Positions 9,393 through 12,645 of a stretch of 12,862 nucleotides of DNA are shown here, piece after piece (the first letter of the stretch is position 1; every line of letters begins with the position of its first letter). The notes beneath the pieces were generated by a model, which was not told the DNA's origin, ran no database searches, and saw only the letters and a list, made by a program, of their open reading frames with translations. This DNA comes from a bacterium (GTDB lineage Bacteria; JAHJDO01): positions 1-12,862 of the forward strand of contig JAUWOV010000052.1 in assembly GCA_030611945.1 (NCBI GenBank), written 5' to 3'. A program made the position numbers and the translations under genes.

Positions 9393-9548
9393 TTTTACGA
9401 GTATTATGCTCTGCCCTGGCTTCTTATTGGAAAAGCTTATCAGAAAAACAATAATTCTGAAAAAGCCATGGAAAATTATGAAAGAGCACAAAAAATTGTT
9501 CCATGGAAGACAGGATTTGATAAATGGCTGGGAATTAGAAGGAAGTAG
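9393..9548 (+). pseudogene. 3' fragment of a TPR-like protein gene (copy 1)
   Basis: The frame ending in TAG at 9546-9548 reads a TPR-like helix pair (PWLLIGKAYQKNNNSEKAMENYERA in pieces) and then a C-terminal tail ending in DKWLGIRRK. The same protein end is encoded at 11057-11212. The frame is open back into the pilin terminator, but those upstream residues do not resemble a protein domain and there is no ribosome site, so this is most likely a 5'-truncated remnant. The parent gene cannot be named. TPR tails occur on many membrane enzymes and scaffold proteins. Confidence 0.6.
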
Positions 9549-9636
9549 ACAGACCAGCTAGCTGGAATATCTATGTTTGATAAGGACTGGAAAGCCAAGA
9601 CATTGCATCCTTTATATAATCGTAACAAAATAGGAC
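9399..9636. repeat. Long direct repeat, copy 1
   Basis: This 238-bp stretch matches 11063-11300 without gaps and, counted by eye, with 14 mismatches (about 94% identity). It holds the 3' end of the TPR-like gene, a short spacer with the 12-bp palindrome CCAGCTAGCTGG (9554-9565), and on the other strand the last codons of an abiEii-like gene. Similarity stops at 9636, and the ATPase unit begins there. Confidence 0.9.
9571..9636 (-). pseudogene. 3' remnant of an abiEii-like toxin gene
   Basis: Read on the minus strand, this stretch encodes NVLFCYDYIKDAMS, matching the KVLFFYDYIKDAIS end of the intact AbiEii at 11259-12035. The stop codon of the intact gene (TAG) is TGG here, so the frame runs on to a TAG at 9571-9573. 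The rest of the gene is missing because the repeat ends. It indicates that an abiEii gene, or its duplicated end, once adjoined this TPR fragment. Confidence 0.55.
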
Positions 9637-9650
9637 ATTTCTAAATGTGC

Positions 9651-9680
9651 TTGACAAATTAGTTGTATTTATTTTAAAAT
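9651..9680 (+). promoter_or_regulatory. Sigma-70-type promoter of the ATPase gene
   Basis: TTGACA (9651-9656) and TAAAAT (9675-9680) are 18 bases apart, with 6/6 and 5/6 consensus matches. Transcription would start near 9687, at the left edge of the repeat array that follows. The promoter lies just inside the unit between the two long direct repeats. Confidence 0.7.
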
Positions 9681-9683
9681 ATT

Positions 9684-9740
9684 GTTAGCATACTTAGCGA
9701 AAGTAGCAAAAGATGCTAACAGTGCTAATTGTGCTAAAAG
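9684..9740. promoter_or_regulatory. Symmetric array of six half-sites (operator-like) at the ATPase transcription start
   Basis: Three TTAGC-type units lie at 9685, 9694 and 9703 (the third is GTAGC), each 9 bases apart. Three GCTAA units follow at 9715, 9724 and 9733, again 9 bases apart. All three pairs are mirror-symmetric around 9711. The outermost left unit and the first right unit extend to a perfect 7-bp pair, GTTAGCA/TGCTAAC (9684-9690 and 9714-9720). The array starts at the predicted transcription start and ends right against the ribosome site GGGAGG. It could be a repressor operator with cooperative half-sites, or an RNA hairpin controlling translation. The binding factor is unknown. 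Confidence 0.7.
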
Positions 9741-9749
9741 GGGAGGCAA

Positions 9750-10907
9750 GTGAAACTAAATCCATTTATGCCAGGCAGAACAATTGATCCTCGGTTTTTT
9801 GCAGGGAGAGAAAGTGAAATTAAAAAATTTAAAATGTTTTATAGAAATGTTAAGCAGGGTAATTCCTTGCATTTTGCTGTGCAAGGAGACAGAGGTATCG
9901 GGAAAACATCCCTAATTCGTTACCTTGAATCTTTAGCTAAGACGGATAAAGCTATTGTTGTTAGGCTAGACATGGATGCTTCTTTTGATAGCCTTAATGC
10001 TTTCGCTAAAGCTCTGCTTTCTAAAATACGTAAAGAAGGCCAAAGATATTCACAGTTATTTAAGGTCTCGGAGACATTTAGAAAACTGTTTCAGGAGAGA
10101 TCTGTTTCGCTTGACCTTTTTGGGGCTTCTATTGAATTAAGCAAGAAAGAACAAATCCAATCCTTTGAACTTCAGGACAAACTTAGTGAAATATGGCTTA
10201 AAATGGCTAAAAATGTTCCCGCTGTTGTGATTATGATAGATGAGGCAGAATATTTAGAAAAAATAGAGGGAGCTTTCCAATACATAAGGAACGTATTTGC
10301 TAGATTAGCTGAAGAAAATTGCTGTTATATGCTTGTGATATCAGGGAAATTAACGTTGTTTAGAAAGATAAAAGAAATCCATTCTCCATTAGCAAGGTTT
10401 TTTAATCCCGTAGAATTGGGCTCTTTTAATGAAAAAGAGAGCAGAGAGGCAATCCTCAAGCCCTTGCAGGGTTCTGAGTTTGAAATGTCCAATACGGTCA
10501 TCAATAAAATCATAGAAGAAAGCGAAGGTCATCCTTATATTATACAAGTATATGGCTTTTATCTTTGCGAAAATTCCCCAAAGAAAAACATCGATATTTC
10601 TGTATTTAATGCTAATTATCCTATTATTTTAGATAGTCTTTCTCAACAACTTTTTTCGGATTATTATCATTTAGCAAGTAATGCTGAAAAAAACATTCTC
10701 AAGTTGATGGCGAATGATGATAAAAATACTATTCAAATTGTAGATGTCGCCAAGAAAGCTGGAAAAACAACTTCTGAAATAAGTTACTTATTTGAGCGCC
10801 TCGTAGAAAAGGATTCTTTGATTAAAACAAGTAGGGGGAAATACTCATTGTTTCATGGGTTATTTAAGCAATATTTGAAACAGGTTGAATATAAGGAATA
10901 TTTATAA
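9750..10907 (+). CDS. STAND/AAA-like ATPase with C-terminal winged helix, function unknown
   Basis: The 385-residue protein opens with NPFMPGRTIDPRFFAGRESE, a signature of orphan AAA/STAND-type ATPases in bacteria and archaea. Walker A is GDRGIGKT (46-53, Lys52) and Walker B is VVIMIDEAEY (159-168, Asp164-Glu165). A ISGK segment (197-200) fits the sensor-1 strand. Residues about 300-375 look like a winged-helix domain (NAEKNILKLM, then TSEISYLFERLVEKD). No membrane helix is seen. Start is GTG at 9750, behind GGGAGG. It has its own promoter and an unusual symmetric repeat array, and its stop overlaps the start of a serine recombinase gene. This context suggests a mobile or defence cargo gene. 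The winged helix might let it bind DNA or its own operator, but no role is established. Confidence 0.85.
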   Translation: MKLNPFMPGRTIDPRFFAGRESEIKKFKMFYRNVKQGNSLHFAVQGDRGIGKTSLIRYLESLAKTDKAIVVRLDMDASFDSLNAFAKALLSKIRKEGQRYSQLFKVSETFRKLFQERSVSLDLFGASIELSKKEQIQSFELQDKLSEIWLKMAKNVPAVVIMIDEAEYLEKIEGAFQYIRNVFARLAEENCCYMLVISGKLTLFRKIKEIHSPLARFFNPVELGSFNEKESREAILKPLQGSEFEMSNTVINKIIEESEGHPYIIQVYGFYLCENSPKKNIDISVFNANYPIILDSLSQQLFSDYYHLASNAEKNILKLMANDDKNTIQIVDVAKKAGKTTSEISYLFERLVEKDSLIKTSRGKYSLFHGLFKQYLKQVEYKEYL

Positions 10908-11056: not shown

Positions 11057-11212
11057 TTCTATGAGTATTACGCTCAACCCTGGCTCCTTATTGGAAAAGC
11101 TTATCAGAAAAATAATAATTCTGAAAAAGCCATGGAAAATTATGAAAGAGCCCAAAAAATTGTCCCGTGGAAGACGGGATTTGATAAATGGCTGGGAATT
11201 AGAAGGAAGTAG
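11057..11212 (+). pseudogene. 3' fragment of a TPR-like protein gene (copy 2)
   Basis: This second copy of the TPR-like gene end has the same reading frame and TAG stop (11210-11212) as 9393-9548. An in-frame TGA at 11027 closes the frame upstream, and no start with a ribosome site is present, so it is also a 5'-truncated remnant. Seven of the eight codon differences from copy 1 within the repeat are silent; the exception changes Leu to Gln. It faces the abiEii gene tail to tail. Confidence 0.6.
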
Positions 11213-11300
11213 ACAGACCAGCTAGCTGGAATATCTATGTTTGATAAGGACTGGAAAACTAAGATATTGCATCCTTTATATAATCGTAAAAAAACAGGAC
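11063..11300. repeat. Long direct repeat, copy 2
   Basis: This is the partner of 9399-9636, shifted by exactly 1664 bases with no gaps. It includes the palindrome CCAGCTAGCTGG at 11218-11229 and runs 42 bases into the 3' end of the intact abiEii gene. The 1.4 kb between the two copies carries the ATPase and the broken recombinase. Confidence 0.9.
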
Positions 11301-12035
11301 TTTCTTAGAATCATGCGGAGCAAACAAAAACGGACCTACATCTTTTGCCAATAACTTAAAATTAAGCTTCTCGCATCTCAATAAAAGCCGCTTTTTTAAA
11401 TCAAAGTTATCTCTAATTTTCAATTTTTGTTTTAAGTATTCAAGATTCGGTTTTGTCTTACCCAGCAGAAAAACAGCATCGTAAAAATCCCTCCCCATCG
11501 GACGCTTGCGTTCAAAAATAGCATATATTTTCTGAGCCAGCAATACATCAACAGGCACCACATTTATTCTTAAGAACACATCAAACTTGTTTATAATAAC
11601 CACATCCGGACAATAACTAAACCTCTGAGGCTCTGCATCAAGTTGAATCAACAATCTTTCCTCTCTATGACCGGAAAGTCCATTCTCAAAAAGCACACCA
11701 AAAATTCTGATATAAGATCTATATGCGCCTTTAAACACATTCTTGACTTCCACAATATACCCTTCCTGCTCCAACTTTCTCTTTATTAATTCACTTAATT
11801 GCTTAAAATCTCCTTCATCCAAACCAAGATTATCAAAATCTAAATCTTCTGAGAACCTTGTATTTGAATGTATAATGCGAGCAGCTGTCCCGCCCATAAA
11901 CGATAATCTTTCGCCAAACTTTGATTCAAATATAATATCCAGTATCTTATATTGCAGATATTCCCGCAATAGATTCCGCTTGAACGGCTTTAGATATTCG
12001 GGATAGAAAGATTCTATCTGTCCTATATCAAGCAT
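11259..12035 (-). CDS. abiEii: AbiEii/AbiGii-family nucleotidyltransferase toxin
   Basis: This 258-residue protein is a DNA polymerase beta-type nucleotidyltransferase of the AbiEii family, the toxin of type IV toxin-antitoxin pairs also known as phage abortive-infection systems. Motif I is MGGTAAR (47-53) followed by RFSEDLDFD (60-68), with D64 and D66 as metal-binding residues. An Asp in LIQLDAE (133) fits the third carboxylate. The QK and GRDFYD stretch (168-186) matches the conserved basic and acidic motifs of the family. The ATG at 12035 overlaps the abiEi stop by 8 bases, with GGAG upstream, so both are made from one message. The last 13 codons and the stop lie within the long direct repeat. 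The known family targets GTP or tRNA; its target here is unknown. Confidence 0.9.
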   Translation of the reverse strand: MLDIGQIESFYPEYLKPFKRNLLREYLQYKILDIIFESKFGERLSFMGGTAARIIHSNTRFSEDLDFDNLGLDEGDFKQLSELIKRKLEQEGYIVEVKNVFKGAYRSYIRIFGVLFENGLSGHREERLLIQLDAEPQRFSYCPDVVIINKFDVFLRINVVPVDVLLAQKIYAIFERKRPMGRDFYDAVFLLGKTKPNLEYLKQKLKIRDNFDLKKRLLLRCEKLNFKLLAKDVGPFLFAPHDSKKVLFFYDYIKDAIS

Positions 12036-12645
12036 GTTTTACCCACTCCAGAAAAGATTTTATTGTCTTGCTTAATGTCTTTTGAGTAAACTTTTCAAGA
12101 AATGCATAGAGTTTTTTTTCATCAACTTGATGAAAGAACGCGTCTCTATTTATGCGAAGACCTGTAAAATCACTTTCTTTTTTCACATTTGGATTGATAT
12201 AAAGATAATCCAGAATAGTTTTTTCTATGCTGGCAATCTTAAAATATTTGTCGTTATACTTGATGAGATTATAACCAAAGAAGAGTTCTTGCTTTATTGT
12301 TTTATAGCTAAATTCCGCTATCGGGGTCTTAAACCTATAAGTGCGACGAGTAGAAGCAGAGGTTATCTCATACACGCTTTCAGGAATTAAATTATAATAA
12401 GACATCGCCATTTCAAACGATATATAGGACGGCTTATATATTCTATTAGCAATTTCAAAAAGAACATTTTCATTAAGTTCCAGATCAGAAAAAACATAAT
12501 AGCCCTTTACAATCTTTTTGATATAGCCCTTAGCCTGCCATTCATTTAATCTTGCGCGAAAGAAATCACTGTCAATCTTTTTAATGTCGTTAATGGAAAA
12601 TACTGTAAAATCCTTTAACGCCTCTTTCAGTCTAACATACTGCAT
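12028..12645 (-). CDS. abiEi: AbiEi-family antitoxin / transcriptional repressor
   Basis: This 205-residue protein fits AbiEi, the antitoxin that counters AbiEii and represses its own operon. The N-terminal 50 residues form a winged helix (RLNEWQAKGYIKKIVKGYY at 32-50). The conserved YISFEMAMSYYNLIP segment (74-88) and IASIEKTILDYLY (137-149) match the family pattern (YIS..SALSYHGLI and ASPEKALLDLL). It lies directly upstream of abiEii with an 8-base overlap, the usual antitoxin-toxin order. Start is ATG at 12645, with a weak AGAG ribosome site. In characterised systems the pair does not form a stable complex and AbiEi binds inverted repeats in the promoter. A candidate site is present upstream. 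Confidence 0.87.
   Translation of the reverse strand: MQYVRLKEALKDFTVFSINDIKKIDSDFFRARLNEWQAKGYIKKIVKGYYVFSDLELNENVLFEIANRIYKPSYISFEMAMSYYNLIPESVYEITSASTRRTYRFKTPIAEFSYKTIKQELFFGYNLIKYNDKYFKIASIEKTILDYLYINPNVKKESDFTGLRINRDAFFHQVDEKKLYAFLEKFTQKTLSKTIKSFLEWVKHA

Follow-up and report, generated by a model that had tools for sequence, protein, structure and literature searches.

What does an array of six short half-sites do when it stands, in mirror symmetry, between the strong predicted promoter of a single-gene ATPase and its ribosome site? The question is raised by one locus in a stretch of bacterial DNA of 12,862 nucleotides, here called the window.

The array and its neighbourhood

On the forward strand of the window, TTAGC occurs at 9685..9689 and 9694..9698 and, with one mismatch, as GTAGC at 9703..9707; these three left half-sites are followed by three right half-sites, GCTAA, facing the other way (reverse strand) at 9715..9719, 9724..9728 and 9733..9737. 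The steps are exactly 9 bp, all three mirror pairs share the centre 9711, and the G of the third left unit is the sole irregularity. Direct reading of the sequence thus agrees with an earlier sequence-only reading of this DNA, which had described six half-sites in mirror symmetry at 9-bp steps about the same centre. It had also placed the array at the predicted transcription start and beside the ribosome site of the ATPase gene, and this too holds: a predicted sigma-70-type promoter (TTGACA-18-TAAAAT, 11/12 in a consensus scan) lies at 9651..9680 on the forward strand, so that the array begins about at +1, and the ribosome-binding site GGGGAGG is found at 9740..9746 on the same strand, with the GTG start codon at 9750.

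The suspicion that this regularity exceeds chance is well founded. We used a period-9 mirror score, in which three left and three right units have to be alike under mirror symmetry and no letters are prescribed. The window array scores 92, a value reached by 0/4000 dinucleotide shuffles (mean 56.8, sd 4.4, maximum 78). Under a strict test for six units (any 5-mer at any step of 6-12, with <=1 mismatch) the window had 2 matches, as against 0 in 60 shuffled windows. Within its own genome (a 1.66-Mb assembly, ~91% complete) the complete pattern has a single occurrence, the other places with TTAGCN4TTAGC being isolated pairs and not arrays.

The surroundings of the gene are rich in repeats of other kinds. 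The -35 box of the ATPase promoter is supplied by a short dispersed repeat at 9617-9660 (GGACATTTCTAAATGTGCTTGACA), which has ~30 partial matches in the sister genome G004, often doubled ~25-35 bp apart and close to contig ends, and which looks like an insertion-sequence end. A 247-bp direct repeat (9393-9639 and 11057-11303, 93% identical) flanks the promoter-array-ATPase segment and contains the end of a TPR-like reading frame; these are its only two full copies in the genome, and G004 has a 165-bp relative (91%). It may be that the segment was acquired as a cassette. The downstream copy is overlapped by the 3' end of an AbiEii-type toxin gene (Pfam AbiEii; 11262-12645, reverse strand), upstream of which there is a reading frame in the antitoxin position.

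Arrays upstream of related ATPases

A search of genome and viral contigs with the single protein as query gave no match; a query made from a three-sequence alignment did find matches. Relatives occur in the same genus (L010), in another phylum (G359, L024), in Deltaproteobacteria (L062 and L072, with 49-52% identity), Micrarchaeota (L063), Hadesarchaea (L065), Methanophagales (L064/L066) and Patescibacteria (L083), and in many Acidobacteria. Directly upstream of relatives with 22-52% protein identity there is again a mirror-symmetric 9-bp array, as seen in Deltaproteobacteria, Acidobacteria, Patescibacteria, Micrarchaeota and Methanophagales. When the letter-blind score was run at periods 7 to 12 over the 170-180 bp before each start, period 9 stood apart in front of most homologues, with z about 7-12 where the array is clear, and the other periods were mostly at background in this first clade. 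In some members (L024, L075, L079) there is a second, smaller peak, in most cases at period 7, that stays below the one at period 9, and in one (L080) the two periods are about equal. The upstream regions of 18 of the 24 ATPases score 80-103, whereas none of the 1493 control windows taken at those loci exceeds 77; near-duplicates (L010/L067, L064/L066, L073/L074) lower the count of independent arrays to roughly a dozen.

Symmetry, position and the 9-bp pitch are constant in this clade, whereas the letters of the half-sites vary: TTAGC in the window, ATAGC/ATATC in L062, TTTAAC in L063, AAGTTA in L064, GTTAC/GTTCC in L010, GTTAC/GTTTC in L083, GGAACAAA in L070 and L079, and TCACAAA in L075 and L077. 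In the window and in L010, L024, L062, L067 and L083 the array lies over the -10/+1 region or directly beside it; in the archaeal L064 it comes, as read by eye, after a TATA-like stretch. The transcription machineries of bacteria and archaea differ. The two arms of an array can also differ slightly, with GTTAC on the left against GTTTC on the right in L083, GTTAC against GTTCC in L010 and ATATC/ATAGC against ATAGC in L062; in these and in L067 the arms look as though they were drifting or duplicating separately. In two Acidobacteria (L069, L071) what is present is mainly a single arm, made up of three near-perfect 9-bp direct repeats. No array precedes the gene of L065 (Hadesarchaea), which directly abuts its upstream gene, and several distant homologues have no clear array upstream. 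The sequence-only reading had asked for a comparison of homologues, those lacking 9-bp half-sites to count against the array; most close homologues carry them, and some do not.

A different pitch is seen in a sister clade (NPFAPGAGxPPPELAGR...), whose members are often met on plasmids and elements under the name 'ATP-binding protein'. Its median z is 5.2 at period 10 (n=24) and about 0-1 at 7, 8, 9, 11, 12 and 13; z exceeds 4 at period 10 in 14 of the 24, and about half of the sampled members are without a clear array. In the clearest case (L096) three AGTTTA-type units face three TAAACT units. On a quick tree of 51 proteins, two changes are needed to account for pitch 9 versus 10. On plasmids, the neighbouring genes are for the most part unrelated, with no conserved operon in most of the contexts seen.

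The ATPase and a candidate self-operator

The gene (9750..10907, forward strand) encodes a P-loop ATPase of 385 residues which Pfam, AlphaFold2 and Foldseek/VIA describe as AAA_16/nSTAND1 with a C-terminal winged helix. Both Pfam matches exceed their gathering scores (AAA_16, 44.9 bits versus 32.6; nSTAND1, 39.0 versus 27.1), and a Walker A motif, G..GIGK.S, and an acidic Walker B residue, D164, are invariant; these features place the protein among the AAA_16/STAND-type P-loop ATPases. The AlphaFold2 model (pLDDT 83.3, pTM 0.82) is of low confidence at residues 117-138. The winged helix, the presumed reader of the half-sites, occupies residues 311-367 (10680..10850, forward strand) at a pLDDT of about 90, with helices at 311-321, 330-337 and 341-353 and wing strands at 357-361/364-367. 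As in STAND-type proteins it comes after the lid, and the structures 2qen and 2fna align over residues 3-378. The nearest solved folds are archaeal, namely PABY2304 (2qen, Z 25.6), SSO1545 (2fna, Z 23.9), ORC2 (Z 23.6) and Orc1, followed by CED-4 and plant NLRs and, lower, TnsC. The archaeal STAND/ORC-like ATPases, Orc1/Cdc6 included, share the overall fold with its C-terminal winged helix, but only about 18-22% sequence identity with the window ATPase, and we know of no operator array for SSO1545, PABY2304 or Orc1/Cdc6. The window protein is not an Orc1/Cdc6 initiator by TIGR02928 (17.8 bits, against a curated NCBIfam cut-off of 181.3). PADLOC and NCBIfam gave only weak matches and pointed to no named system, and no known defence system was called. 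The C-terminal winged helices of L062, L063 and L070 weakly match AbiEi antitoxin winged-helix profiles, and that of L063 also weakly matches CasR/CARF regulators.

It seems to us quite likely that the array is an autoregulatory operator of the ATPase gene, with the ATPase docked on it by winged helices and its own transcription shut off. The identity of the ATPase as the binder, cooperative binding, repression as the outcome and a role for ATP are what we infer. A cooperative repressor operator had been among the earlier suggestions, and comparison of the sequences speaks for it: the architecture is conserved over the -10/+1 region in homologues of two domains of life, and its pitch tracks the protein clade. 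Each protomer would bind one half-site through its C-terminal winged helix, and successive protomers would be stacked head to tail with a spacing close to one turn of the DNA (9 bp in the clade of the window ATPase, 10 bp in its sister). Such a step would leave neighbouring protomers on nearly the same face, where they could touch head to tail. Three of them on each side of the dyad would form two opposed rows facing each other, which would cover the -10/+1 region and shut off transcription of the ATPase; since the array covers or abuts that region, repression of its own promoter would be the natural outcome. Loading and release of the rows would depend on nucleotide state or on some signal that the STAND/ORC-like ATPase module senses. 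The array is thus probably a docking strip by which the ATPase switches its own gene, although the ATPase may activate there instead of repressing. Among 13 proteins, with overall protein distance removed, half-site letters showed no significant relation to winged-helix or recognition-helix distance (partial r 0.03-0.07). A more general proposal, which we make tentatively, would be a class of one-gene device in which an ORC/STAND-like ATPase forms two opposed winged-helix filaments as it polymerises along DNA, and which has spread horizontally across domains of life; the protein-set pitch of 9 or 10 bp would be its ruler and the letters would drift freely, giving each copy a private, portable switch usable in any host.

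Could the array instead act in the RNA? The earlier suggestion was a switch that masks the ribosome site by pairing of left with right units in the leader. A hairpin, long but imperfect, can form in the leader and place left unit n opposite right unit n, but the fold, which the earlier reading had asked to be checked, is just modestly better than those of shuffles (z = -1.96), and the ribosome site stays outside the hairpin. Moreover, hairpin pairing is not the conserved property, because complementarity is no greater between the units of a mirror pair than between unpaired units (0.663 versus 0.660, p = 0.82, 18 arrays). The half-sites behave as independent copies, as alike within an arm as across arms (identity 0.689 versus 0.660, p = 0.057), and a comparison with Rfam gave no match up to E 0.5. 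A switch of this sort is very improbable. The same slight excess of identity within arms could be taken as a sign of chance or tandem-duplication debris, slippage being able to create short repeats; slippage does not, however, yield exact mirror symmetry, the shuffles never reach the array score, and the array recurs across the ATPase family, so that this explanation deserves practically no credit.

A protein other than the ATPase might also be the binder. A position over the -10/+1 region suits any repressor, including a host regulator whose control of the ATPase is incidental, another of the earlier suggestions. This is nevertheless highly unlikely, because unrelated bacteria and archaea have arrays of this architecture in other letters, with a pitch that follows the ATPase lineage; nor is there a second copy of the array in its own genome. 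Finally, the array could be an iteron-type or loading site at which the ORC-like ATPase nucleates DNA melting, replication or partition for a mobile element, control of the promoter being incidental. In favour of such a site, archaeal Orc1/Cdc6 is among the best folds, with TnsC further down the list; plasmids often carry members of the sister clade; and one weak phage match is annotated ORC1/Cdc6. Against this, chromosomal copies are solitary and no replicon genes were seen beside the window copy, the array lies at the promoter of the ATPase's own gene, and on some of the plasmids with the gene, other transfer or partition genes lie close to it. The iteron-like role once envisaged for the array finds no support beyond the ORC-like fold, and we regard a loading site as unlikely.

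Comparison with known systems

Among known regulators, the MerR-like BldC of Streptomyces has winged helices that stack head to tail on 9-bp direct repeats, in variable unit number (PMC5859096). One winged helix per 9-bp unit, head to tail, is also what we propose for the ATPase, and 9-bp direct repeats are present in the window array. BldC, however, has no ATPase domain and is described on direct repeats only (PMC5859096), whereas here there are two opposed arms about a dyad and a 385-residue ATPase, whose lack of a MerR match in Pfam places it outside the BldC family. Type Ia ParA of the F, P1 and P7 plasmids, itself a winged-helix ATPase, acts cooperatively on repeated and inverted motifs to repress the promoter from which it is expressed (PMC8465637), and by analogy the window ATPase would do the same. 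ParA differs in its deviant Walker motif and N-terminal winged helix, as against an AAA+/STAND-like protein with a C-terminal one; in its sites, which comprise hexamers in direct orientation every 13 bp and a 28-bp spaced inverted repeat instead of a 9-bp mirror array; and in working with ParB/parS, where no partner is evident here. With its best Pfam matches to AAA_16/nSTAND1 and Pfam-matched neighbours that are TPR-like and AbiEii, the window ATPase is not a type Ia ParA. The SARP-LAL regulator PimR, a large ATP-binding protein, acts cooperatively on tandem heptamers with an 11-bp (or 10-bp) pitch (PMC5930380), but it is an activator at the promoter of another gene, its sites are direct repeats only, and it is a much larger multidomain protein.

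Autorepressor, winged helix and cooperative repeats are all familiar parts, while a limited search of the open-access literature found no earlier description of a family-wide operator of this kind for the ATPase family. A widespread, unnamed family of 'ATP-binding proteins' gains a concrete and testable candidate DNA target, which suggests that STAND/ORC-like ATPases of this family are autoregulated DNA binders. The combination of constant architecture, changing letters and clade-set pitch offers a clean natural experiment in how oligomer geometry constrains operators, and the approach is a practical route to the binding sites of uncharacterised STAND/ORC-like ATPases.

A more distant, paralogous ATPase of the NPFIYGE/NPFVYGE type occurs at L054 (G000:C62) and L055 (G002:C125). 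There is no 9/10-bp array upstream of either copy; both have a doubled palindrome, TTACACTTTTTTGTG, right behind a TTGACA box, which is perhaps another kind of self-operator.
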